Source of the DNA: Romanomermis culicivorax
Lineage: Eukaryota > Nematoda > Enoplea > Mermithida > Mermithidae
Reading direction: 5' to 3'
Length of the DNA: 64,000 bases
Assembly (NCBI GenBank): GCA_963922205.1
Contig: CAWUHX010000027.1
Location: 682,001 to 746,000, forward strand
The translations under genes were made by a program, and so were the position numbers. The first letter of the stretch is position 1; each line of letters opens with the position of its first letter. Positions 12,102 through 56,966 of this stretch are shown here, in pieces. Below the pieces are notes generated by a model, which saw only the letters and a program-made list of their open reading frames with translations, was not told where the DNA came from and made no database searches.

Positions 12102-13944
12102 TTTTAGGGCGAAAATGGGGAAAGAAGTTTCGACTTCGGAAAGTTGTATTCCGAAATGCATGAAATATTTTCTGAATAATAAAATACACATGCAGCAAAA
12201 TTGTTCAGCCGTGAACAGTATGATTTACAAGAGAACATATTACTGAAGAAATCATTCCCAGATAAATATGAATATATTATAATGCAAATAAATGATCAGA
12301 ATTGAGACGTCTTTTCGGTCAGCATAAGTGCTTGAAAGGAGATAAGAATCATTCTGTAGAAAACTAAGTAAAAGGGAACGAAATAATATTAAGAGAATAT
12401 GAAGACCCTGTATCCTATAACCCGGATTGAACTTTCCGTTTGGTTGACCGAAATTTGATGAAGTCAAACAAGATCTCGCAAACTATCATCCCCTTATTTC
12501 TATTGATTAGTGACGAGTGTCCAATATTGTGTATTTTGAGAATAGAAAACTGAAGTGTTCTTGGAGCACAGTCTGCTACAAAGAATATTTGTCATTATTT
12601 CTAAAAATTTTGCGACTATCGCCGTCAGAAAAAGTTCTCACTTCAAACATGGTCAAATATTTTTTGGCTGGAACGGATTGGCGCACCGCGTGAGTAGATT
12701 ACGGTTGACGTTATTAAAGGACTTGCTTCTGCGCCGAGTTTTGACAATTTCATAATTCGATTGTAATTATTTTCTATGAAGCTCATCACGTGAATTGTGA
12801 AAATATAATGATTCTGTGCTTATTCAGTGATTATCACACAAGAATCTCTCTACTGAGCTATCTTAAGTGCATTTAAATAAACATGTATATCATTCCTCAG
12901 AATAGTTACTACCTACTGTAGCTGAGCTGGACCTTGACGGGAGTGTTTAACATGCAGATTTAAGCTATACAGCTCAGCAGCTAAATTTGGGTGCGACTTA
13001 AAGATGGATCCACCTGTGGATCGCAGATCCGGATCCGACGTCTAAACACAGATTCGGATCCGAATCCAGATTGCCATAACCAAAGTAAGGTTTTGGAAGT
13101 TGGCTTTTTAATGTCTTAAACCCAGATCCTCGCGGATCCATTCAAGGATCCAGATCTGTGGTGAAAACGACTTAAACCCGTAGATTTCCAGATCTGGATC
13201 CATCCGAAATTATATGATGTATTTTTGATCCAAATCAAAAATTTTTGGTCGGGATCAACATTTTTTGATACGCATCAACTTTTTATAATCTAGACCAAAA
13301 TTTCTCGAATTTTTTTCTTCTGGCGTTTATTTTCATGCCAGGAATAAATTTTGATCGTGATCAACTTTTTTAATTGAGATCGAAATTGTTAGAATTTATT
13401 TATCTTGACATCTATTTTAATGCATGTGTGACGATGCCCAAAGAGTGCCACCATGCATTTTCCTCTGAGCCCGTTGACTTGATGTTGCGCATCCAAGTCA
13501 TGGGCCCAGACCTGTATTTTCATCATAATGGGCACTACTGCAGTTGCAGCAAGTGAGGCAGGACTGTGCGGCCAGTGGTAGAGAAGCTACCACCCAGTGT
13601 GTGAGAGCCATTACACATGCATCAAATCTTTGATCTAGATAGAAATTTTCGATTGCTAAAGTAGTTCACCCCGATATTTTGCAGCGATATCCTGGGTGAA
13701 TTACTCCACTACACAGAAAATGAAACTGTAATATACGGCCGTTTTCATATGAAACATAAAACTTAGAGGTTGGTCTGCTATTACTATTCATGTTTTTTAA
13801 GTATACAAATGTGTAATTTTAGCTTTTCAGTTTTGAACAAACCAGAAAGAGTTAAGTGGAGGATTAACCATGGTTAACATACCCGGAAAAATAACTAATG
13901 ACAGTCCTTTTTCATTATTAACCCTTTTTTCCTGAATAGTTTTT
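12102..13944. other. Intergenic stretch with GGATCC-rich cluster
   Basis: About 1.8 kb lies between the start of the minus-strand gene and the first recognisable Maverick coding segment. At 12990-13215 many GGATCC, GATCCGGATC and CAGATCT words cluster, as at 4718-4790. No gene or RNA is recognised. From about 13.4 kb rightwards CpG becomes rare, so the true left edge of the mobile block is probably in this stretch. Confidence 0.5.
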
Positions 13945-14187
13945 GTGATTCATGAGCAAAAAGCTAGACATCCTCCTGTATATATAATAGATGATCAGCT
14001 GGGAGAAGTCATACAGGGTGTATTTCATGAGCCAGAATTACAACAAGTTGATCAGATTACAGATGTGTGCATTATAGAAAAGATTATGAGAAAGAGAAAA
14101 AGGGCTGGGAAAACTGAATACTTTGCTAAATGGGAGGGTCACCTAGATAAATTCAATAGTTGGGTGACAGATTTGATAAAAGTATAG
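13945..14187 (+). pseudogene. Maverick integrase C-terminal chromodomain fragment
   Basis: The 80-residue frame ends with a chromodomain-like fold signature: KIMRKRKRAGKTEYFAKWEG, then an FNSWV block before the stop. Retrovirus-type integrases of Mavericks and of chromoviral Gypsy elements carry such a C-terminal reader domain. The catalytic zinc-binding and DDE core, which should precede it, is not visible upstream, so the gene is truncated or lost to rearrangement. Its place upstream of the packaging ATPase supports Maverick rather than Gypsy origin. It could be a stray Gypsy integrase tail, but the neighbouring genes argue against that. Confidence 0.65.
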
Positions 14188-14994
14188 CTACAGTATGAAA
14201 ACTAAACAATGATTTGCAGGTCTTAAAATTTTTACCTGTGCCTGATATAAGTATATAAGGTATATAAGCAACTTCGAAATTATTTTAATCAGTCTTGATC
14301 ACTTGATTAACTAAAATTGAGTCGAAAAAGGTTAAAGGTCCTATCAAACTCTGTGCTCGAAACCTGCTGAGGGCCATGTATCCCTTGATGATTGAACTGT
14401 TTTTTTTGTCAAAAGAACAGCTCTGAACAGGAGTGTTTTTAGTTGTCTCAGGGCAAAACATTCTTTACTATTGAAGTGTGCCCAAAATGTCTAGAATACA
14501 AAAAGGCATTGCAGGGAGCTGGCACCGGTATACTAAAGAAGCAGCTGGCTGATAGACAGGCGTTCATCTTCAAGCCTACAGTAAACTAGTGAGATGCCAT
14601 TTGCAAGTATTCTCTCATATTTTTCATGCTGCAAATTCTCCTAAATCTTCAGTCTTCAAACTTTTCCTATCACTGTTCAGTTGCTTTTTCAAAATGGAGG
14701 GTATTTTTTTAAATGTTGCACTGAGTATGGGCACTTTTCTCAAAAGACCTTATACTCAAAAAGATGTGGCCAGGTTTGCCTCATATTCTTGGAATTGAGT
14801 AAGTGATGGCTACGGAGAGGAATGGAAAATTTTGGCTAGAGTGGCCATGAACTGGATCATCAAACAGGTAAAAGAAAATTGACAGGGTTTTGGCATTTTG
14901 CCAAGGCACTAGAGGATTTGATAAAAATTTGCAGTGCTGGACCTTATTTATTTGAGATCTGGATGAATCTGAGTTCAGAAACCATGCAAAAACA
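14188..14994. other. Unassigned Maverick interior, no clear gene
   Basis: CpG-poor sequence between the integrase fragment and the mariner insertion. Open pieces such as 14589-14798 carry no motif I recognise. It may hold the remains of a Maverick ORF too broken to identify. Confidence 0.4.
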
Positions 14995-16286
14995 CAGGGT
15001 GGCCAACGTATCTATTCCAGATTTTGTTTTACTATAATTACAACATTTTTCATTCAAACATGATTAAACTTTTCCAGATTATAAAGCAAACATTAAAGTT
15101 TTATTCTGTAAATTTTTACACCAACAAGTCTTATGTTTCACGAATGGTATACTTCCACCTGATCATCACCATTTTCGAAAACTTTGAACAAATATGGTTA
15201 CATCATTGAAAGCATGAATAATGTGATTTTTTAATTCCTTGATGTTATTTGGACGCGTTGTATACACTTTCGACTTAATAAAACCCCAAAGGAAGAAATC
15301 ACAGGGCATTAAATCAGGAGAATGTGGGGGCCAAGGCATGGAAGGCAAACCATGACCCATCCAGCCATTTGGAAAAGTTTCATTGAGCCAATTGCAAACA
15401 TTTCTTCCCCAATGAGGTGGTGCACCATCTTGCATAAAAATGACTCAGTTTTCAATTTTATGAGCTTGCAATTCAGGATAAAATTCGGGTTGTAGCATTT
15501 GGAGATAATGTTGACTATCAACATTGTCATCAAAAAATTGGACCAATTAGGCCCTGATCGCCAATTGCAGCCCAAACTGTTGTCCTTGGAGAATGTAAAG
15601 ATTTTTGGGTAATCCATTGGGGATTTTCATCAGCTGCCATCAATATGAAAATGTGCTTCATCAGAAAAAAACAAATTCGCCAAATGATCTGGATTTCGAT
15701 CCATTTGGTCAATTTCATCCTGCGCAAATTCTAATCGATTTTCTTTATCTTCTTCTGTTATTTTCTGGACAATATGCACTTTGTAAGGGTGCCACTTTAA
15801 ATGTTTTAAAATCTTTTGAATTGTTGTACGGCTCATCATTAGGGCATTAGCCACACGACGTGTTGAGGAATGAGGATTTTTGGTGAAATGTTCTGTCACT
15901 CTTGTCAAATATTCTCCTGAATGGGCGGAACAACTGTGATTTCGTCTACTATCCTGCACCAACCCAGTCTCCATTAATAGCCTATGCCACTTATAAATGC
16001 TGTGGTGTGATGGTGGATCACGGTTAAATGCCATTCGAAATTTTCTTTTAACCATTACGAAGTTGCCCATCCATTCATATCATGAAGGAACTTTTGCTCA
16101 TCCAAAATGGTGTAGGCCATGGATAATTATAGTTAAAATATAAAATAATAGTTGGAGCATCCTATATAAATACTGAATTAAATTCTAATGTTTACTGTAT
16201 ATTATGCCAAAATTACATTAAGTTTGAGTAAGTATTGAAGATACTGTAGCAAAACAAAATCTGGAGTAGATACGTGTGCCACCCTG
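14995..16286 (-). mobile_element. Tc1/mariner-superfamily transposon inserted in the Maverick
   Basis: Inverted terminal repeats of about 41 bp start CAGGGTGGCCAACGTATCTA at the left, and the right end reads CAGGGTGGCACACGTATCTA on the minus strand, both continuing into CCAGATTTTGTTTT. The right flank is TA (16287-16288); the left flank is CA, a one-base change from TA. The element carries a broken transposase on the minus strand. It separates the Maverick integrase fragment from the ATPase gene, so it landed after the Maverick. Confidence 0.88.
15166..16120 (-). pseudogene. Tc1/mariner-type transposase, frameshifted
   Basis: Reading on the minus strand, an N-terminal helix-turn-helix part (RDPPSHHSIYKWH) is followed by the first catalytic Asp in FFSDEAHFH, the second in MQDGAPPHW, and the third in SPDLMPCDFFLWG. 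By my count 42 residues lie between the second and third Asp, longer than the 34 of classical mariners. Frameshifts occur near 16070 (N-terminus) and near 15630, and further stops lie around 15435-15560, so it is inactive. The enzyme would cut and paste the element by recognising its inverted repeats. The exact family within the superfamily is not assigned. Confidence 0.85.
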
Positions 16287-16410: not shown

Positions 16411-16420
16411 TATAAAAGTT
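16411..16420 (+). promoter_or_regulatory. Maverick TATA box (ATPase)
   Basis: TATAAAAGTT lies 31 nt upstream of the ATPase ATG at 16442. The same 10-mer recurs before several other genes of the element. Confidence 0.7.
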
Positions 16421-16441
16421 GAGAATCTATAGAAAAAAAAC

Positions 16442-17044
16442 ATGGCTGTAAAATTTAAGTGTCTTTTTACATGTATTGTTGCTGGCCCTACAAAAGCTGG
16501 CAAAACAACCTTTGTAGAAGTACTTGAGTGAACTAGTTCCTGAACATATTCACTGGTTTTTTAGTGAGAAGGAGCCAGTCTACAATCACTTGTCTGGTAG
16601 AGTCAACTTCTATCTGGGGTTACCTGACATGAACTTGATTAGAGAGCTGAGTTCTGGGCCCCAGCTTGTTATACTAGATGATCTGATGCAGGACATGGCA
16701 AGAAATAAGCATTTGAACATTCTTTTTATTCGTGTATGTTATCACATAAATTTGTCTGTGATCACATTGTTCAAAATGTTCTCTTTGAGGGTGTAAGAAC
16801 ATCTACAATAAATGCAGAGTACCACGATTTGATGCAAAATCCTGCAGATAGGCTCCAAGTAAAAACTTTGGCAAGACAGTTGTTTCCTAATAGGGTAAAG
16901 TACTTTCTCGAGTCTTTTGAAGATGCTACATTTGAACCATACAGTTATATAATTATTGATCTTTCTCAAATAACACTCAATAAACTTAGACTCAGAACTG
17001 ATATTTTCTCAAAATTTTCCATGATATATGTGCCGAAAGCATAA
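16442..17044 (+). pseudogene. Maverick genome-packaging ATPase
   Basis: This is the FtsK/HerA-type ATPase that pumps DNA into capsids in Polinton-like viruses. After the ATG at 16442 comes a Walker A loop GPTKAGKT, and about 60 codons later a Walker B strand VILDD. A conserved C-terminal part follows (FEGVRTSTINAEYHDLMQNP, then an RQLFP block). Frame changes near 16520 and near 16735 break it. The stop TAA at 17042-17044 sits inside the next TATA-like box. Length, about 200 codons, fits the family. Confidence 0.82.
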
Positions 17045-17049
17045 AAGTT
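17040..17049 (+). promoter_or_regulatory. Maverick TATA-like box (17076 ORF)
   Basis: CATAAAAGTT differs at one base from the shared TATAAAAGTT. It lies 36 nt before the ATG at 17076 and includes the stop codon of the ATPase gene. Confidence 0.6.
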
Positions 17050-17075
17050 GTCTATTTTCCAGTTGTAACATCAAA

Positions 17076-17419
17076 ATGCCTTGTGGTTGTCTTAGACATA
17101 ATATTAATCACATCAGGGTACTAGCTAAGGCTAAACCTAAGCGAAGTAAAGCTATTATTAGCACTGCTGATCATGAACTGATACTCTGTTTGTGTGAATG
17201 TATACACAACTTTCTAGAAGACAATATAAAGTTGACAAAAATTCCCTAAATAAATTAAGTTCCCACAAGGGACATTTACGAGTATTAGCAGATAATAAAA
17301 CAAGTCTCAGCAGAAGACAAGACATTCTATAACAAAAAGTTGGATTTTTATCAGTGTTGTTGGCACCAATTTTAGGAATAGCTGGAAAATTACTAGCTGA
17401 TGCAATTATAAAGAGATGA
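17076..17419 (+). pseudogene. Maverick small ORF with hydrophobic C-terminus
   Basis: The N-terminal half is basic (AKAKPKRSKA) and contains CLCECIHNFLEDN. After a frame change near 17250 and one TAA near 17330, the frame continues with a hydrophobic tail (GFLSVLLAPILGIAGKLLA). Small ORFs of this layout, just after the ATPase, are common in Mavericks and have no assigned function. Its stop TGA (17417-17419) overlaps the next ATG as ATGA. Confidence 0.6.
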
Positions 17420-18144
17420 TGCATACAAATAAAATGATTCTTATCCCACTTGACATTGGTCATAGGGAGGACATAGCAGCTAATGTAATGACTGCTTTGG
17501 ATAAAGAAATGAATGACATTTTCACTAATAAGTCCTTGCCCTCAGACAGGAAGATAATCTTATATAATCAAGTGTTGCACAAATATAGGCAGGCTATGCA
17601 GGATCAAACCAAACCTTATGAGTTGACTATTAGTGAACCTGTTGCAGAACACTCCATCCCTGATCTAGAAGAAATAACACCTGAGCAAGAAAAGCCAGAC
17701 ACTGGTGAAAGTACCATCAATGTTACCCTGAGAAAACATGTGCTGTATGAAAAAACTAGGAATATTGTACCAAAAAAGTGGCATAGTCAGGCTTAAAAGT
17801 TATATGATTATGTTAAAGATAATCCACTTATAGAGTGGTCGAGTAAAGGAGAAATGATTCAGGAAGGCACCAAAATAAGTGGAACCAACATTGTTGATTT
17901 GATTTCTGATGTTGTAAGAGTTGGTCTGAGGCGTCAGCAAGCAATAGAGTCAGAATTTTTTTTAAAGAACCTCTTAAAGGAAAATGTGTCTGGAGATTTT
18001 TTTGTAAATAAGTCCAGGTTAAATGTTATAAGTGAAAGTGATGAAACATTTGCTTCCCCAGGAGGCCCGGTAGATGGTAAAAAAATTAAGGCACCCAAAA
18101 GTATTACACCAAGGTCTAGATGGTTAGAATTTCGAAAAGTATAA
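17416..18144 (+). pseudogene. Maverick conserved ORF of unknown function
   Basis: About 240 codons in one frame, broken only by a TAA at 17794-17796. Residues at the C-terminal end include IEWSSKGEM and a SGTNIVDLISDVVR block, a pattern I associate with a conserved Maverick virion-type ORF. The middle is acidic (EEITPEQEKPDTGE). The stop TAA at 18142-18144 lies inside the TATAAAAGTT box of the next gene. Function unknown. Confidence 0.6.
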
Positions 18145-18149
18145 AAGTT
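18140..18149 (+). promoter_or_regulatory. Maverick TATA box (PX-like gene)
   Basis: TATAAAAGTT, 41 nt before the ATG at 18181. The stop codon of the upstream ORF is contained in the box. Confidence 0.7.
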
Positions 18150-18180: not shown

Positions 18181-18573
18181 ATGAGACTATACTTTAATCT
18201 GGAAGATTATTCAACTTGGCTTCAGTACTACCCTGAACAAGCTGAAGAAACTGGCTATGGTTTCAAAGGCTTTAAAGGCACTCCCTGTCAGCACGGAAGA
18301 GGTCTAGAAAGCTTCTTTAGATCATTATTTAGAATATCCATTCCTGTTGTTAAGTCAGCTGCTGGTCATATTGATAAGCAAGCACTATCGATGGGTGCAC
18401 ATATTGCTGGATATTTAGCAGAAGGTCAAACTATAAAAGAATCTCTAGAAGAACATGGCCGAGCAGCACTCTCCAAGTTGGACCACAGTGCTTGAGATGC
18501 CTTACAGACTGAAAGAGGCTTGGGGAGTAATCCAAAAGGTATAAAAGTTAATAAAAATGATATATTATTGTAA
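18181..18573 (+). pseudogene. Maverick PX-like minor virion protein
   Basis: The N-terminal half has a Gly/Phe-rich patch and then GLESFFRSLFRISIPVV, an amphipathic stretch, followed by helices containing AGHIDKQALSMGAHIAGYL. This arrangement resembles small membrane-active or cement-like virion proteins of Mavericks (PX). A TGA at 18493-18495 interrupts the frame, which otherwise runs to 18573 and overlaps the capsid gene and its TATA box. Identification is by pattern only. Confidence 0.6.
18540..18549 (+). promoter_or_regulatory. Maverick TATA box (major capsid gene)
   Basis: TATAAAAGTT, only 17 nt before the presumed capsid ATG at 18557, inside the end of the PX-like frame. The short distance could mean that the true start is further downstream or that the leader is very short. 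Confidence 0.65.
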
Positions 18574-19772
18574 AAAGTCTGAATTGGACTTGTTCACTGT
18601 ACCTCCCACACAAGTAGTAATTAAATGAGGCTACTGGGATGAAGTTAACCTGATGAATCCTATCACAAATGATGGTCCATACAAATTTTGTATACCACCA
18701 GATCCTCATATTTTTCAGCTTAGCCAAAATTATCTGTACATGACCTTGAAAATTACTTACACAGTTCTTACTGGTGGAGCTCCACCAGTAATTGCACCTA
18801 TTAGTCTGATTGGTAAAGCATTTTTCAGACAAGTAATGCTCTTCCTGAATGGTTGTCTCATTCATGATAGTGGGATAAGTATGCATACAGAGCATTCTTT
18901 GAAACTGATTTGAATTTTGGTTATGATGCTAAAAATAACCACTTACAGTCTTCTTTATATATTTTGAAGACAGGGTAAAGCACGTTAAAAATGGTGAAAA
19001 AGTTGAAATAATAGCTCCTCTTCATATCAATCTCCTAATGCAAGATCAATATTTACTCAGTAATACTGAGCTCAAACTGGAATTGATCCACAATAGTAAT
19101 CCATTTGTATTACAATGCCCAGTTGGTGAAACATAAAGTGCAAAATTGGAAGTTTCCTAGATGAAACTCTTCATCAGGAAAGTTGAAGTTCTCGACAGTT
19201 TCAGATTTGCTCTAGAAAAAGCAATGTTAAAAACACCAGTCAAATATCGCATCACGGGAGTCAAAATGGTGAACCTTCATATTGCTTGTACAATGCAATT
19301 TACACCTTTAAATACTCTATTTACTGGTCAGTTGCCACATACAATGATTATAGCATGTGTTGATGTAGATGCACATCATGGAGAAATCAAATTATCTCCA
19401 TTTAATTTTAAATTTTACAGTATCAGTGAAGTCAAGGTTGTCTCTGGTAGTCAAGCTTTTCCAGCAACTCCATTAAGACTTGATTTCGCTAACAACAAAT
19501 ATATCCCAGCTTATGATCAGCTCTTTCAAACTGTAGACATGGCTAAAGATAACAAGGGGAACAGCATTAGCAGGCTTAATTTTAAAAATGAACAGTGCTA
19601 CTTTGTCTCCAATTTTACACCTGATGAAGATGATAGTGGACATTGGGACTTGATTAGAGATGGTTCCACAAGTATAGAATTGACTTTTGCTGATAGGATA
19701 TCTGACACAGGTATACAAGTTATTGGTTGTGCAGGATTTGACAACTTGATTATGATTGATAAAAATGCATGA
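18557..19772 (+). pseudogene. Maverick major capsid protein (double jelly-roll)
   Basis: About 400 codons in the position and of the length expected for the Polinton capsid, which forms the icosahedral shell. An N-terminal part contains YLYMTLKITYTVLTGG; the C-terminal 203-residue frame (19161-19772) contains the LPHTMIIACVD and SGHWDLIRDGS-like blocks found in the family, and is intact. Breaks are a TGA at 18626-18628 and several stops and frame changes between 18910 and 19160. The stop overlaps the protease start as ATGA at 19769-19772, suggesting coupled expression. Confidence 0.78.
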
Positions 19773-20262
19773 ATACCTCTGAAATGTACATCTTGATCAA
19801 TAGAGATCAAGCTCTCAGACAAATCTTCAATGATGTATTTGCTATTGACTGTTTACGATCTGTTGACACTGTACCTGCAGCATTGGTTGTTAATCTGGTC
19901 AAGTGGGATGAATGTGGTTCACATTGGGCAGCTCCGTTTATTGATAAAAATACAAGTGTTATTATTTTGACAGTTCTGGCCTCAAACCACCCAAACAGCT
20001 TAAGAATTACATCACAAATATTGATACTTCTTACAAGTGCAATACCAAATGTGTTCAACAGTACTTGACTGCTACATGTGGTCAGTTATGTGTATACTTT
20101 CTCATGTGGATGGTTAGAGGTATAACTATGAGAGATATTGCTGCTGGCTTAGAACAAAGCTACACTGATGAATTTGTTACTGGCTTTATCAACAGTCTCT
20201 TTAGAATAAATACTCCCATATATGATGATGCATTTTTATCTGCCAAGCTCAACAGAATATAA
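19769..20262 (+). pseudogene. Maverick adenain-like cysteine protease
   Basis: This is a maturation protease of the adenovirus-protease type that processes virion proteins. The catalytic His is in GSHWAAPFID, followed by a region with hydrophobic strands, and the nucleophile Cys is in TCGQLCVYFLMW. A frame change near 20060 separates the two halves. The stop TAA (20260-20262) is embedded in the TATAAAAGTT box of the next gene. The length of about 165 codons fits the family. Confidence 0.82.
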
Positions 20263-20267
20263 AAGTT
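20258..20267 (+). promoter_or_regulatory. Maverick TATA box (penton gene)
   Basis: TATAAAAGTT, overlapping the protease stop codon, 14 to 29 nt before candidate ATGs at 20281, 20284 and 20296. Confidence 0.7.
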
Positions 20268-20280
20268 AGTTTCCACCCTA

Positions 20281-21069
20281 ATGATGTATTCAAAAATGAA
20301 TTTTTCACAGTTTTTTGTAACATTACCGAGCAATGCTCAGAGTGATCTGAGCAACACTGCTTCAAATTTTAGGATTAGGTTGCCTCATAGACTGATTTTA
20401 CAAGGTGAATGAGAATGTGCACTTTGAGATTTCATCTACTCTAATACATGGCTTAATGTTACACCTAGAGATAGTTTAATAAAATTTTATGATACTCTGA
20501 CCAATACCAGTCAACTACTACAAGGTATGAATCTGTAACAGATTTAATCGAAGCTATTCAACAATCTATCAGGTTGTTCAGTGAACAGGAAAAAGTTCCA
20601 TATAATGAGCTTATCAAATTTTCATATAGGAGATTAGCCAGAGCATTTGTGTTGAAAGTGAACTTGACTAGAATCAAGAGCATAAAATCAAGTGATTTTT
20701 TGCTTTGAGAAATCACAACTACAAACAACTACTTCTGAAAAACTGAAAATTGCTGCTGCACACCCAGCTGATAGGAAGGCTGGTCTCGAAACCATGTATG
20801 TTTACTGTAACATCATTTAACAGCAGATGGCTACTAAAATTATAGATAAGATATATATAGCTCCCCATTACTTGCCAGTGCTTGTAAAAGATATTGATTC
20901 TATCCAAATTTCAATTAGAACAGATCAAGACAAACCTATACAATTTGTCACGAGTAAAACTATCATGAAGTTACACTTTAGAAAGAGAAGCATATTCCCA
21001 AAATTCAAGTGCAAAATATTACTGTCACAGCTGAACTTGGCTGTTCATTGGATTCAGACCCACTGGTAA
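20281..21069 (+). pseudogene. Maverick minor capsid (penton, PY) protein
   Basis: The C-terminal 80 residues (frame 20827-21069) contain YIAPHYLPVLVKDIDSIQIS, then PIQFVTSKTIMKLHFRKR, which matches the typical end of Polinton single jelly-roll penton proteins. Upstream, several stops and frame changes break the first two thirds, where LPSNAQSDLSNTASNFRIRL and a FSYRRLARAF block remain. The natural end is probably shortly after LHFRKR near 20990; the reading beyond that overlaps the TBP-like frame. Confidence 0.68.
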
Positions 21070-21497
21070 AAAAGTTGGAAAATTCTAAGCTGGCTAGGGG
21101 AAAATTCAAGTCTCTAATTTGGCACTTTCATGCTCCAAAATGTGTCTTACTTTTGTAGGAGAATGGCAAGCTCAAATGTGTAGGCATTAAGACTACTCAG
21201 CAGGCTGTAAAAGGTATAGATTATGCCGCAGAAGTAGTGCTTAAACTGTGTACTGTTGTCAGGTCATATTCCCTAGACCATCATATAAACATTGAAGAAC
21301 TCTATTTTGCTCATAGTGGTCAATGTGATCATTCTCCAGATCTGTTTCCTGCACTGAAACATATGATTGATGAACAGGGTTTGTGTGAATTCATTTTTTA
21401 TAATGGAAAAATTATTATTACAGGAACCAAGAACTTTGGTGAGCTGCAAAATAGCTTCAAAAAACTACTTGACTTGCACAGGGTCAAAAGTCACTAG
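20982..21497 (+). pseudogene. TATA-binding-protein-like gene in the Maverick
   Basis: One frame of 171 codons with a single internal TAG (21156-21158) reads like the two-repeat saddle core of TBP. Repeat 1 has VQNITVTAELGCSLD, RGKFKSLIWHF, then NGKLKCVGIK after the stop. Repeat 2 has HINIEELYF, PDLFPALKHMI, then FIFYNGKIIITGTK. The paired GK..(C/I)(V/T)G motif and the repeat-2 Phe residues equivalent to the DNA-kinking pair are present; the TAG falls at the position of one repeat-1 Phe. TBP binds TATA boxes to start transcription. Length, about 170 residues, equals a TBP core without an N-terminal domain. There is no clear ATG: the frame opens after a TAG at 20979. It follows the penton gene directly on the same strand. 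A captured host TBP is the alternative to a viral-type gene. Confidence 0.82.
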
Positions 21498-24669: not shown

Positions 24670-27600
24670 TATTTTGAGAAGCCACTGGAACACTGGGAAG
24701 AACCTCAGTTATTAGACATGTGATTGATACGGGGAATGCAGCCCCAACTGTCCAAGGTATGAGACGAATTCCGGAAGCACAAAAACGGATAATTGATTAA
24801 GAAGTAGAGAAGATGCTCATACATAATGTCGCACAGCCGTCCATTAGCCCATATTGTGCCAACTTTGTATTAGTCCTGAAAAAGGATGGTTCATGGAGGC
24901 CATGCATCGATTTCCGGATGCTGAACACAATCACTAAGAAGGATGTTTATCTATTGCCCCTAATCAATGAAACTTTAGACACAATGGGCAAGGCCAAGAT
25001 TTTTACCACTATTGACTTGGCTCATTGATATTGGCAAGTGGAGTTAGATGAAGCCAGTCCTGAAAAAACAGCATTTGCAACACTCAGGGGGTTATTTGAA
25101 TTTACAACTATGCCATTTGGGTTATGTAATGCCCCGCAAACATTCCAGCGCCAAATGGATGTTATTCTAGGAGCCTACCAGTGGGATTTCTGCACTGTCT
25201 ACTTGGATGATATCATTGTATTCTCAAGCAGCTTTGATCAGCACATGATCCATCTACAGAAAGTGTTCGATAAACTCCGGTTGGCTGGCCTGAAAATGAA
25301 ATTGGCAAAATGTGAATTTGGAAGGAAGGAGGTACCTTTTTTGGGCCATATGGTGACACCTGAAGAAATTAAGCCAAATGAAGAGAAAATTCGAGCAATT
25401 TTGAACTGGCCCACCCCAAAGAACAAAGAATTAGCCAGCTTTTTGTTGTTTATTCAATACTATTGGCGATTCATATACAATTTTTCACAAAGAGCGGCAC
25501 CACTGCTGGATGCAAAGCGACCCTGGAATGAGTTCAAATGGACCTCAGAGTGCAAATATGTATTTCAAAAGCTGAAATTAGAAGCTGTTAATTATACTAC
25601 ATTATGTTACCCTGATTTCATAAAGCCATTTATTGTCTATACTGATGCTTGCCATCGTGGGATAGGAGCCATCCAAGCTCAGCAGGAGGGTGGGAAAGAG
25701 TGGGCAGTGGCTTATGCCAGCAGAATTTTATCAGAGGCTGAGCGACGATACCATATTAATGACAAAGAAATGCTGGCAGTGCATTGGGCTATAACACAAG
25801 CGTTTCGACCTTATGTGTTTGGTCAGCAATTTGATTTAGTCTCAGATAGCTCAGCAGTTACGGCCCTGAAGACTCACAAAGAAAATAATGGGTGAATTCG
25901 TAGATGGCAGAAGGAGTTGGCATCTTACACATTCTGGCTATTCCACCAAAAAGGGACTGCCAACAGTAATGCCGATGGTCTGTCATGGAAGCCTGCAGAG
26001 CTGGCACTAGTGTGCTTGGAGGAACCACAGGAGGAAAAGCCAGTAAGCTTTGAAGAGTTCCTACAGAGAGACCACATGTCTCAGCCTGGTCTCTCAAAGT
26101 CTTGCTGTGCTGGACCAATAAGGGAAGATGGTACCCTGGGGAGGACAATCATTACTACAGCTAATGCAGCCACAATAAGGGAACAGTTACAGGATGATAA
26201 ATTGCAGCAGAAATTTGAGCAGGAGTGGCCTTCAGATTGGAGCATAAAACAGTGGAAAGATCCCTTCAGCCTGAACATGTGTCGATATTTAGTATTCCGA
26301 CAGACCCCCACAGAATGTCAGCACAGGTGATCAAAGATTCAAAATTCTTTATTGTGTGGGAAGACAAGCAGCTATATTGGAAACCAGATCCAGGAGGTGA
26401 GGAAATACAATTAGTTGTGCCACTATCAAAGCAGCCTTAATATTAGGGTATTTTCATGATTCAGCATTTGCTTGTCATCTGGGAGCTGAAAAGACATTGC
26501 AAAAGATTCAAGAATGGTATTGGTGGCCATTCCTTTGGCTGCATGTTGAGGATTATGTTCGAAGCTGTAAAATCTGCCAAGCAGTCAAAGGAGGTCGAGC
26601 AACAAAGTAGTCGCTACAGATTATTCCAGTTGACCACTTATTCGAACTTATTGCTATTGATATTTTGCAATTTTTGTTAGATTTTTGTTAGAGAGAGGTG
26701 TTTTGCAACACGGAGCCCCTAAATCCATATTGTCTGATCAAGGGAAACAGTTTACATCTGCTGTAGTTGTGGAGCTCTGCAAATTATTGAACATGAAAAA
26801 GATTATGACAGTCCCATACCATCCCCAAACTGATGAACTTGTCGAAAGATTTAATCGGATGTTAATTAGCATGTTAGCTGCTAGTGTCACCGAATACAAG
26901 GAAGAATGGGATCGAATGTTACCTTATGCAGCATTTGCCTACAATACATCATTCCAAAGCTCAACCCATCAAACACCATTTGAGGTATTTTATGGTCGGA
27001 AACCCCAATTTCCCATTGACATGGTGCTTCGATCAACAGTTGCATTATCTCTTGGACCATGGGATTCCAAAATTGTAGAGCAAAGAATGATTGTGGCAAG
27101 GCAACTTGCACTGGAGTCAATCAGGAAGGCTCAACAGCAGCAAAAGAAGTTATATGATAGGAAAAAGCGAGCCCTTAATTTTGAAGTGGGGCAACCAGTA
27201 TGGTTAGTTATTAGCAGAAGAGCCAAAGGAGTGGAGGGAAAGCTGCATCCACATTGGATTGGTCCTTATCTTGTGGTTCAAAGAGTGTCAGCTGTCAATT
27301 ACATCATCAGGGCACTTAATGCCAAGGACAGAACAGTGCACGCTAACCAGTTGCGTCTTCCTTATATGCGGCCTGAAGATAATGTAGAAGCGGAGAAAGT
27401 TGATGCTGCCCAGGTTACTGAAATTCCGACCATAAAGCCCAAGGGCCATTCTGGCAACGCAGGACTGTCTAAGGGTAATGTGGCTAGGTTTCAGAAGGTT
27501 AAGGGGCAAGAGTCCAGCAACTTTGGCCACGTTCCTACCTCTGACCTTGGTAGGAAAAGATTGGAAAGAGCTTCAACCAACATTGAAGAGGTCTACCAAG

Positions 27601-27920
27601 TGCGACGGAAATGGATAGATGCAGTTCAGAAGAGAGTGGGAGATGGGGTTGTTATATTATCAAATGGACAGCCTGTAAAATGTGGTTACCTATTGTGCCC
27701 AAAGGAGACAAAGAAACGCAGAGTAATTAAGCCAGGATTATTTGCCATAAAATTATTTGGATCCAATAGAGTTTGGTTTGAAAAGCAGGAGAACATTGGT
27801 GACTACTTAATATTCAAGGATTCCCTGCGACAAAGATGTAGATTAGAAGCATTAGCTAAACAACAAGCAGAAGCTTATGTAAATAGCCTAGCCAAAGAGG
27901 ACAAGCTCCATAATCTATAG
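24670..27920 (+). pseudogene. Gypsy Pol: reverse transcriptase, RNase H, integrase
   Basis: After a VIDTGNAAP leader come reverse transcriptase blocks: LKKDGSWRPCIDFRMLN, FTTIDLAH, MPFGLCNAPQTFQR, and the active site YLDDIIVF. RNase H follows with FIVYTDACHRGIGAI and DLVSDSSAV. The integrase shows an HHCC-like zinc region at about 26450-26600, a first Asp in AIDILQF, then SDQGKQFTSA and HPQTDELVERFNR. About 40 codons between the first two catalytic Asp blocks are missing near 26670, at a duplicated TTTTTGTTAGA. In-frame stops include 24676, 24798, 25026 and 25893. The 27920 end is extended by a basic C-terminal region. Confidence 0.88.
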
Positions 27921-33790: not shown

Positions 33791-34520
33791 AAGCTTCGGG
33801 ACATGGAATGTCCGCACACTATATCAAAGCAGATGATTGGCTCAACTCCTGAAAGAATTCGACAATTATTGACTTGATATCCTTGGGATTAGCAAGGTCA
33901 GGTGGACAGAAAAAGGCCCCATTATTAGCAATGGCAAGATGATATTGTACTCGTGCCAGGAAGTTTGGCACAAATGTGGTGTTGGATTCATTTTGAGCAA
34001 GGAGGCGGCGGGAGCCCTCATCCGTTGGAAGCCCATCGGGGATCGAATCATCACAGCCCGCTTCAGATATGGTCATGTCAAAGCAACTGTCGTTCAAGTC
34101 TATGCGCCGATGGATAGCTCGGAAGATACAGTGAAAAACGATTTCTATGACCAACTGCAAGATGTTTTTGATGACATTCCCAACCACAATCTCAAGATCC
34201 TCATTGGCGATCTCAATGCCGAAGTGGGTGGTGACCGATTGGGATACGAAGGGGTGATTGGAGCACATGCATCATCCACATGGCTCAGCGACAATGGCGA
34301 GTGGCTGGTGTTGTTCTGTGAACACAATGGGCTCTGCATCGGCAATAAGTACTTTCAGCATGAAAGGATCCACAAGAAGACATGGCGGTCACCGGACGGA
34401 TGCACGTTCAAGGAGATCGATTTCAAATGCATAAGTCAAAAGTTGAGGTCGTCTCTATGCGATGCAAGGGCCTATCTGAAAGGGGACGTTGGATTTGATC
34501 ACTATCTAGTCAGAGGAGAA
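33791..34520 (+). pseudogene. LINE apurinic-type endonuclease domain
   Basis: The domain opens with FGTWNVRTL near 33791, and continues in the 33939-34685 frame with a GVGFIL block, VQVYAPMDSS, LIGDLNAEVGGDRLGYEGVI, WRSPDG and a D-H pair near the end (VGFDHYLVR). These are the exonuclease-endonuclease-phosphatase motifs that nick the target for reverse transcription. TGA codons near 33829 and 33872 and a frame change near 33930 break the N-terminal part. Confidence 0.8.
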
Positions 34521-36410
34521 ATGAAGCTAAAGCTTCGAAACCAAAAAAACCCAAACCAAGGAGACCATTCCCAACTGAAGAACTCAAGGACCGGACCAAT
34601 GCCAACACCTTCACCTTGGAATTGCGAAAGCGATTTGCCCTCCTCGAAGAGACAGAGGAGATTGATGAAACATGGCAAGGCTTGAGAGATGCCACTGTGG
34701 AATGCATGCAAAACAGCATCGGAAGACACCGCAGAAAAAGGGGGAACAGTGGATCCAGGGAAGATCGTGGAAATTGATCGATGAAAGGAAAATCGCCAAG
34801 CTCAAATGAGACCAGGCCAAAACACCAGAATCCATCGAAGAAGAGAGCCAAAACTATGCCGAACTAGATTGGCTTGTAAAGAAAAGTTGTCGGAAAGACA
34901 AGAAAGAGTGGTTAGAGCGGAAAGGCGCCAAAGCCCAGGAAGCAGCTGACCGGAAAAATTCTAAGACCCTCTACCATATCCTTAATGAGCTCACCGGATC
35001 AAGACCCAATTCGAATGTCCCAATAAAGACAAGAATGGAAAGCTTTTGATCGCCCAAGAAGAGCAGAACATAAGATGGGCTGAGCACTTCCAAGAAACTC
35101 TCAACCAGCTAGAGCCCACCACAATCTACAATTTTGAAGTGGAAAACGCTCAAGAAGAACTGGTGGTCACCACCAACAAAATCACCATTCAGGAAGTGAA
35201 GATTGCGATCAAGAATCTTAAGAACAACAAAGCGGCCAGTCGGGACAAAATACCCGCAGAGCTACTGAAACACCATGATCAAACAATGGCTGAAGCACAG
35301 ACAACACTATTCAACAAGTGCTGGCGAAGAGGCACAGTTCCGGAGGATTGGCGAAAAGGGGCCATAGTCAAATTACTGAAGAAAGGCAACTCCTCTGAAT
35401 GCACCAACTGGAGAGGCATCACCCTCCTCTCTGTGCCCGGCAAGGAATTCTGCATCATTCTGCTTGGAAGACTGTGAAATGCCCTCGACCAACGTCTATG
35501 AGAAGAGCAAGCCATGTTCAGAAAGGGCCAATCATGCCCAAAATAAAGCTTCGCCTTGAGAAATATCATCAAACAGTGCATCAAATACCAGCAACAGCTC
35601 GCCATCAACTTTGTCAACTTCAAAAAGCCTTTGACAGCATCCACCGTGACTCCCTTTTGGCAAATTCTACGCCTGTACGGCCTCCCGAGCAGCTTCATTA
35701 ATATCTTCAAAAACCTGTATCACCAATCAAGCTGCTGTGTCAAGACCGGGAATGGACATACCGAATTTTTTGAAATCGCCACCAGTGTCAGGCAAGGCTG
35801 CATCCTTTCTCTGCTACTTTTCCTCGTCGCCCTTGATTTCGCCATGAGGCACACTGGCCCACGAATCGGGGCTGGCATCCATTGGTCAGACCACAAACGA
35901 CTTGGAGACCTTGACTTCGTGGACAACATCGCCCTACTCGAAGACACTGAGGAAAAGTTGCAGCGGGGAAGGTGGCCGCAGTATTTAGGAGGATGAACAA
36001 GATCTGGGCCTCACTGACCATCTCCCTGAGGATCAAATTCTGCCTACTCAACTCCATCGTGTTCCCAACCGCAATCTACGCCAGCGAGACATGGAAGGCG
36101 TCAGCCAGCATTAACAACAAGCTGGATCTCTTCCAACAACGTTGCCTCCACCCAATACTAAAGATCCGTTACACTGATCACATCACAAATGAAGAAGTCC
36201 TGAGACGGAGCGGCGCAGTCAAACTCCACAACATCGTCGCACGTCGAAGACTCCGACTGGCTAGCCACGTCCTCCAAACAGATACCAAGGATGGGGATGC
36301 ACTGGCAACCTCGAGGTGCCAAAAGGCCCCGCGGACATCCACGAAATACCTGGAGAAGGACGTTCATTCAAGACCTGAAGGCATCGAACATGGTGTGGGA
36401 TGATGCCGAA
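34521..36410 (+). pseudogene. LINE reverse transcriptase, degenerate
   Basis: Recognisable blocks are KNNKAASRDKIPAELLK, GTVPEDWRKGAIVKLLKKG, NWRGITLLSVPGK, the VRQGCILSLLLF motif, and at the catalytic site LGDLDFVDNIALLEDTEE, where the usual (Y/F)xDD reads FVDN. The C-terminal part keeps SETWKASASINNKLDLFQQR. The changed active-site Asp and several stops (for example near 35477 and 35500) make it inactive. Confidence 0.82.
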
Positions 36411-56220: not shown

Positions 56221-56966
56221 ACATTATGGATTTATATGAGCATGAGTGTGAACAAGCGAAAAGTTTAGAATTCTGGAAAACAAGTCATCACGAAGCTAAT
56301 GCTAAACAGTTTTTGGGGTAAATTTGATTTGATTGAATTAAAATTTCTGAAAATAATGTGTGTCACCTACAGTCATCATGATGACTTTGCTGAAGTCATG
56401 TCCAACACAAATCCAGTCATTGCAGAATTTACAACACTTCACACACGATTAAAGCTCTATTCCTATTTCGAAAAACTCAGAGCACGAGCACTATATATGG
56501 ACATATTCTGTTCCAGCTGATGCAGCATTACCAGGATCTGCTGAATGTGTCCCACACATTTTCATTGCAGACGACATTTCGGCTTCGTCCAAATTTAATG
56601 GGATCCTTTCCAGGATCCCAGTTAACTAGAAATGAACTGGAACATTCGTTTTTTAACTGTAGATTATCTCGAGCAAGGAGAATTGTTGAGAATGCATTCA
56701 GTATTTTGTTTGCGAGGTGGCGTATATTGTTGAATACGATCGAAGCAACTCCTAATAATATAGACAAAATCGTTAAAGCTTGCATTGTGTTGCACAATTA
56801 TCTAAAAACTATGGATAGCATAACACCACCAACTCTACGATATGTTACGTCAGGATTTGTTGATTTTGAGGATGAAAATGGTATTGTTTTGTATGGAGAA
56901 TGGCATTGCATTTGCAAGCAGGAAACATTGACTAGATTAAGATCCATCAATTACTATTCAAAATAG
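56220..56966 (+). pseudogene. PIF/Harbinger transposase, C-terminal part
   Basis: The block PHIFIADD (near 56555) followed, after a frame change, by FRLRPNLMGSFPGSQLT, FNCRLSRARRIVENAFSILF, ARWRIL and IVKACIVLHNYL matches the DDE_4-type HARBI1 transposase C-terminus. The N-terminal catalytic part is not recognisable; upstream open stretches (56299-56520) show no clear motif. The enzyme mediates cut-and-paste transposition into TAA/TTA targets, which fits the MITE at 58817-59038. Confidence 0.82.

Follow-up and report, generated by a model that had tools for sequence, protein, structure and literature searches.

A TATA-binding protein gene resident beside the putative penton gene of Polintons in the nematode Romanomermis culicivorax, a probable core-promoter factor of the element

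RESULTS

We analyzed a stretch of 64,000 nucleotides (the window) from the nematode Romanomermis culicivorax (assembly GCA_963922205.1, contig CAWUHX010000027.1, positions 682,001 to 746,000 of the forward strand), which holds a broken TATA-binding protein (TBP) gene inside the remains of a Polinton, or Maverick, transposon. We consider it probable that the Polintons of this nematode carry a eukaryote-type TBP as a resident gene by the putative penton gene and that this TBP acts as their own core-promoter factor. The gene, its place, its many copies over divergent lineages, its selection, its contact residues, and the sense-strand boxes at many genes of the A, B and C lineages defined below are matters of observation.

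The TBP frame in the window

A preliminary description of this DNA had read 20982..21497 on the plus strand as a two-repeat TBP core with one TAG, and profile, sequence and fold searches all recovered TBP there. Both halves flanking the TAG (21156..21158, plain in the sequence and its translation) match the TBP family PF00352 and exceed its curated cut-off of 22.9 bits. The first part (20982..21155, 58 amino acids [aa], most of repeat 1) matched the family at 9.7e-7 and found six distinct Protein Data Bank (PDB) sequences, every one named TBP (best, 1e-9). The second part (21159..21497, the end of repeat 1 plus repeat 2) matched at 7.6e-15 and found 35 PDB sequences (best, 6.7e-15), all TBP or TFIID by name except one entered as "ECU04_1440 protein." These PF00352 and PDB matches of both pieces ruled out a chance resemblance to TBP. 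A structure predicted from just the second piece (112 aa; mean predicted local distance difference test score, 81) gave 44 PDB matches at E values of ≤1e-3, all of them TBP, TBP fusions or TBP-containing entries, but this model is not independent evidence because its alignment consisted of cellular TBPs. In the window copy, the codon at the position of its relatives' ATG is not ATG, and the frame falls about 11 codons short of that of a relative (167 residues versus 468 nucleotides [nt]).

The TBP gene had also been placed directly 3′ of a penton gene on the same strand, and tblastn bore this out, with the penton alignment ending at 20997 and the TBP alignment starting at 21003, both on the plus strand. 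The label "penton" comes from position and from the preliminary description's own call only, and intact copies of this gene have no Pfam or PHROG match.

Spread and penton linkage in the genome

Intact element TBPs fall into types A, B (which includes the window copy), C (the complete element on contig C97, described below), D (loci L009 to L011) and E (L016). We searched the R. culicivorax genome (359,112,060 bases in 595 contigs) with profiles. For PF00352, we took the best 150 of 438 candidates; these 150 scored matches form at least 110 loci, with the host gene among them, and the linkage count was built on them. With the penton query, 145 of 1164 candidates were scored, and the 149 matches obtained lie at at least 141 loci. 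Among the matches listed, a TBP match lay 3′ of the penton on the same strand, at −300 to 1500 bp, at at least 81 of the 141 penton loci, so that the arrangement in the window recurs in other copies of the element, and an opposite-strand TBP lay within 2.5 kb of the penton at none of the 141. Counted from the TBP side, a penton stood 5′ at 81 of the 110 TBP loci among the matches listed. Among the other 29 are loci of the D and E lineages, the host gene (contig C95), one A copy (L018), one truncated B copy (L020), and copies of type C with a penton outside the matches listed.

Twenty TBP loci, not a random sample, were fetched for long open frames in the genome search; 19 hold both repeats within one open frame of 177 to 198 codons, and the copy at L022 is partial. 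One further frame of 148 codons (L032:1776-2219, contig C3) has a PF00352 match and, by eye, is unlike types A to E. Pieces of element TBP have also entered protein databases: UniRef entry A0A915J2Z7 (P0001) matches a TBP piece at 94% identity and a capsid piece at 98%, the two lying on the same strand of contig C117, about 1.6 kb apart. This gene model, named "uncharacterized," fuses the capsid C terminus to part of TBP, and host gene sets therefore contain element TBP pieces as uncharacterized proteins. That at least 81 of the 110 PF00352 loci found sit behind a Polinton penton gene is a warning for annotation.

A complete carrier element

An intact TBP gene lies within a complete element of 14.6 kb at C97:180598-195152, bounded by terminal inverted repeats (TIRs) of 132 bp that are 100% identical and stand at C97:180598 and C97:195152. 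The element encodes PolB (PF03175, 7.3e-41), an integrase (PF00665 [rve], 1.4e-15) with a chromodomain (7.6e-8), a C5 protease (L014 copy; Peptidase_C5, 22 bits versus a cut-off of 21.3), a major capsid protein (MCP) (L014 copy; PF21738, 22.8 bits, under the cut-off of 27), the putative penton and small genes. Its TBP (L014 copy) matches PF00352 at 2.6e-42 in two stretches, the two repeats being in one protein. The C97 ATPase has no Pfam match, and its frame extends past the piece scanned; the L019 copy is above the cut-off for Pox_A32. No RNA polymerase gene was recognized among the element genes examined, and none of eight element proteins matched PHROGs. No 6-bp target-site duplication was found at this element, the sole one examined, where the bases flanking the repeats differ. 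The same element contains an F-box-like protein (L030:3512-4465; PF12937, 5.2e-6), possibly a second host-derived gene. At another locus, zinc-finger-like frames with a weak C2H2 match below the cut-off lie on the minus strand 3′ of an A-type TBP (L013:6154-6770).

Lineages and origin of the element TBPs

The TBP types are highly diverged, with identities of 58 to 68% between A and B, 34 to 41% between A/B and C, 44% between D and E, and 28 to 34% between A/B/C and D/E. All 11 intact copies are only 30 to 36% identical to the host TBP over 170 to 177 residues (28 to 30% for the window pieces), far from the near-identity of a recent copy. Gene order varies as well: the D-lineage TBP lies 5′ rather than 3′ of the penton counterpart, a homologue by profile comparison (hhalign, 96% probability; E value, 4e-9), and in the E lineage a 280-codon gene in the opposite orientation stands on the 5′ side of TBP.

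The L012 TBP aligns ungapped over 170 residues with human and yeast TBPs (E values of 1.2e-30 and 1.7e-29), and its match to archaeal TBP is weaker (3.3e-25 versus 1.2e-30 for human). When four archaeal-type rows served as the outgroup, a branch supported at 100/98 placed the element TBPs on the eukaryote side, and an archaeal origin was rejected on these two grounds; contrary to this placement, both window pieces match archaeal chains best in the PDB. We built three trees, all with flagged long branches: a first; a second without archaeal rows and with P0004, P0011 and the duplicate row L010 dropped; and a third with archaeal rows and also without P0006. In the first, the element TBPs fell into two groups, with P0011, a TBP from a metagenome, grouping with the A/B/C rows (88/83). 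In the second and third, the element TBPs form one side of a branch (94/88 and 87/77, respectively, neither starred), a single-origin support that partly hinges on row choice because P0004, P0011, L010 and P0006 had been dropped. Grouping the elements with the host and Parastrongyloides TBPs was rejected without archaeal rows (approximately unbiased test, p-AU of 0.006) but not with them (p-AU of 0.081).

No relative was confirmed when IMG/VR was scanned with the alignments of penton, MCP and element TBP. Cellular TBPs as queries picked out two contigs whose TBPs lie among eukaryote TBPs; a single clade of these with the elements was not rejected (p-AU of 0.134). A protein search with the L014 TBP found six proteins, including two UniRef entries from R. 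culicivorax, and the A/B alignment led to 14, of which two are named archaeal and the others are unnamed; six of seven inspected look archaeal by eye. A mixed alignment gave 6036 matches, and among the 120 listed the named ones are cellular eukaryote proteins.

DNA-contact and partner-contact residues

We numbered the residues of 11 element rows as in yeast TBP, through the ungapped alignment described above, and compared them with a list of TBP contact sites. We take F99, F116, F190 and F207 to be the four intercalating phenylalanines of TBP and N69 and N159 to be its two minor-groove asparagines. N69, F99, V122, N159, E188, L189, F190, P191, F207, K211 and T215 are unchanged in all 11 rows. 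Position 116 is F in four rows and Y in the seven A/B rows. At V71 and T124, all nine A/B/C rows have T and V, and the D/E rows have I and T. E186, on the TFIIB face, is retained in D/E only (2 of 11 rows); among the TFIIA-side lysines, K133 is present in no row, K138 in D/E only, and K145 in five. To judge from this alignment, most DNA-bending residues and some TFIIB-facing residues are conserved in the element TBPs.

TATA-type boxes on the sense strand

The preliminary description had pointed to shared TATA boxes, and between 13.9 and 21.5 kb of the window TATAAAAG indeed occurs at five plus-strand sites and at none on the minus strand. Over five element stretches, we counted 25 copies of TATAAAAG in the sense direction (1.7 expected) and none in the antisense direction (1.0 expected). 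Fifteen of the 25 lie no more than 70 nt upstream of the ATG that opens a reading frame of ≥80 codons, a zone that makes up 7 to 11% of positions. Boxes stand before PolB, penton, MCP and small genes. A TATAAATAG precedes the C-lineage TBP in L014 and L034 and is absent there in L026.

Selection and recombination

Ratios of nonsynonymous to synonymous divergence (dN/dS) were taken only for pairs with unsaturated dS; most between-lineage pairs were saturated, and no ratio was obtainable for the near-identical A pair, whose dS is zero. The 10 pairs of B1 to B5 gave 0.09 to 0.37 (NG86) or 0.14 to 0.56 (YN00), and one C pair gave 0.26 or 0.30, respectively. These ratios indicate that close element TBP pairs are under purifying selection.

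TBP diverges more than MCP and penton and about as much as C5. Between A1 and B1, identity is 60% for TBP, 61% for C5, 74% for penton and 83% for MCP. Between L017 and L012, it is 79 to 100% in the capsid block and 87% in the first TBP window, and it is 63 to 68% in the rest of TBP; synonymous divergence is 1.2 to 1.7 in TBP versus 0.53 in penton. Among L012, L017 and L015, the fall in identity comes part-way through TBP, near L012:4900. The 3′ part of TBP seems to have been replaced through recombination in one lineage.

Weighing the proposed role

We propose that the element TBP would be made in the productive phase of the element, would bind the TATAAAAG boxes and bend them as cellular TBP does, and would recruit host TFIIB and RNA polymerase II. 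The capsid and replication genes would thereby become less dependent on host TFIID. Expression, binding, recruitment and a benefit to the element are predictions from sequence; the conserved contact residues and the sense-strand boxes fit them and favor the element-encoded initiation factor that the preliminary description had suggested.

Several observations weigh against this proposal. Sixty of the 141 penton loci have no TBP match among the matches listed, although the 81 with one are a lower bound because the window's own TBP-bearing copy sits among the 60. E186 is altered in 9 of 11 rows, T124 in 9 and F116 in 7, and the TFIIA-side lysines vary. The 25 boxes are not independent events because the stretches are related. 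At the element loci examined, no boxes were found before C5, the 247-codon gene or the A/B TBP, and TATAAAAG was not found at the D/E loci L009, L010 and L016, though TBP is present there. As TBP sites go, TATAAAAG is ordinary, and host TBP could therefore act at these promoters. Finally, the proposal, as drawn from these sequences, rests on one species.

It is also possible, and we put it forward tentatively, that each Polinton lineage has a private TBP/TATA pair, an orthogonal core-promoter system, with parts of TBP exchanged by recombination. This is suggested because in A/B/C the repeat-1 DNA face appears re-tuned (V71T with T124V in nine of nine rows and F116Y in the seven A/B rows) and many genes have TATAAAAG, and because the D/E rows keep T124, lack TATAAAAG at the loci examined, and have TATAAATAG-like boxes before two E genes. 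If true, about a hundred extra TBP loci have been seeded in an animal genome, a source of new host TBP paralogues.

Other roles for the gene seem less probable. The element TBP might be a decoy or inhibitor that titrates TATA sites or TFIIB and TAF partners and weakens host transcription, leaving host TBP to serve the element promoters. We think this unlikely: the altered TFIIB- and TFIIA-facing positions would suit it, as would the canonical form of the TATAAAAG boxes, to which host TBP should be able to bind, but E188, L189, F190 and P191, kept in all 11 rows, would be unneeded for a pure decoy, and the boxes follow the sense direction of genes that belong to the element itself. TBP is common to the nuclear polymerases, so the element TBP might instead serve another polymerase or act as TLF/TRF2 does rather than as a polymerase II TATA factor, and the trees contain no TLF rows. 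That is very unlikely in our judgment, since the TATA boxes precede protein genes and every one of the 11 rows has F or Y at each of the four intercalating positions, whereas TLF is not known to have these phenylalanines.

Similarly very unlikely is a chance-captured host gene carried as a functionless passenger in one successful Polinton family. The lower conservation of TBP than of the capsid genes (the A1-B1 comparison above) is what a passenger would show; set against it, dN/dS is well below 1 in all 10 B pairs and the C pair, and both repeats are kept in all lineages at identities as low as 28 to 44%. A recent retrocopy of host TBP, landed by chance beside a Polinton, can practically be dismissed. 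The element TBP is intronless and the host gene at C95 requires joining three exons, as a retrocopy would predict, but the low identity that all 11 copies show to host TBP and the same position at at least 81 of 141 penton loci led us to reject this origin for these copies.

The relic that carries the window copy

The window copy is a dead relic of a broken Polinton, in which the ATPase, one unnamed gene, MCP, C5 and penton are each scattered over several frames. All its features lie on the plus strand and, unless stated, were placed by tblastn. From 5′ to 3′, they begin with the C-terminal part of a Polinton integrase (13939..14184; 60% identity to the L030 integrase, which has rve and a chromodomain, 1.9e-32) and a small gene remnant (14310..14568; 36 to 49% identity to L030:683-970). 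A packaging-ATPase gene broken over frames follows (16436..17041; Pox_A32 at 7.6e-6 on the L019 copy), with a TATAAAAG box 5′ of it (16411..16418), and then an unnamed frame of 155 codons (16953..17416; 80 to 86%) and an unnamed 247-codon gene (17401..18141; 84%; no Pfam match for the L014 copy). An unnamed gene of about 140 codons (18181..18567; 81%; no Pfam match for the L012 copy) has a TATAAAAG box 5′ of it at 18140..18147; a further TATAAAAG, found by the motif scan of 13.9 to 21.5 kb, starts at 18432. The double jelly roll (DJR) MCP gene is broken into three frames (18575..19766; PF21738 at 6.3e-5 on the L014 copy, under the cut-off) behind a TATAAAAG box at 18540..18547. The adenovirus-type C5 protease gene (19769..20259; Peptidase_C5 on the L014 copy) and the putative penton gene (20296..20997; 72 to 86% identity to the intact L023 copy) are each in two frames, with a TATAAAAG box 5′ of the penton gene at 20258..20265. 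No PolB was found beside the relic, and the sole PolB-like piece in the window is at 56269-56502.

Other sequences that resemble mobile elements lie within or near the relic. Frames that by eye resemble a mariner-type transposase lie on the minus strand between the integrase remnant and the ATPase (15169-16079). A Gypsy-like retroelement with reverse transcriptase, RNase H and integrase matches lies at 25029-27917, about 3.5 kb 3′ of the TBP relic, and frames like those of a long interspersed nuclear element are at 33873-36400, one with a weak RVT_1 match (0.0016) below the cut-off.

DISCUSSION

TBP is central to initiation by the nuclear RNA polymerases. If our proposal is right, a general transcription factor would be supplied by a mobile element, an animal virus-like transposon that has its own TBP and matching boxes. 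This makes testable the mode of Polinton transcription, an escape from host TFIID limits, and an element origin of animal TBP paralogues.

The element TBP shares with cellular TBP (PF00352) the two repeats, an ungapped alignment of 170 residues and most DNA-contact residues; it differs in being intronless and inside Polintons and in the changes of V71, T124, F116 and E186 in most lineages. The carriers have the TIRs, the protein-primed-type PolB and the rve integrase with a chromodomain that are expected of a Polinton/Maverick, along with a candidate C5 protease just above its cut-off, a DJR-like capsid gene below its cut-off and a putative penton, and they differ by the added TBP gene and by having no target-site duplication at the one element examined.

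In cytoplasmic viruses such as poxviruses and African swine fever virus, TBP-like proteins serve the viral RNA polymerases, unlike in the present elements, in whose examined genes no RNA polymerase was recognized. Both kinds of virus are reported to encode TBP-like promoter factors, and in being virus-encoded promoter factors these resemble the element TBP (PMC12917281, PMC5825884).

We found no report of a Polinton, Maverick or adintovirus TBP in the literature searched, which consisted mostly of titles and the starts of abstracts and excluded most subscription papers and PMC10748475, on nematode Polinton polymerases. TATA or TBP terms do not occur in PMC11071308 or PMC10120064, and the sole such term in PMC12220804 is part of an author name in its reference list. 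Mavericks are not named in the available portions of the R. culicivorax v2 assembly paper (PMC10879605) and the Mermis nigrescens paper. Viral elements of a green alga have TATA-binding proteins among their genes and no DJR capsid gene identified (PMC10675990). Mirusviruses have TBP in 59% of genomes, versus 0% of Nucleocytoviricota; like the elements, they are a DNA virus lineage with a TBP homologue, but they are large plankton viruses with HK97-type capsids (PMC10132985).

The functional precedent is ORF24 of Kaposi's sarcoma-associated herpesvirus, a TBP mimic that replaces TBP on late promoters and so offers a precedent for an element-encoded TBP that would act on its own promoters (PMC12529657). 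Both are virus-encoded or element-encoded TBP-like proteins that act, or would act, on their own promoters with host polymerase II, and the TBP-like phenylalanines that ORF24 requires are mostly kept in the element TBPs. ORF24 works on TATTWAA with extra domains and partner proteins, whereas the element has a bare two-repeat TBP of about 170 to 200 codons and TATAAAAG (PMC12529657).
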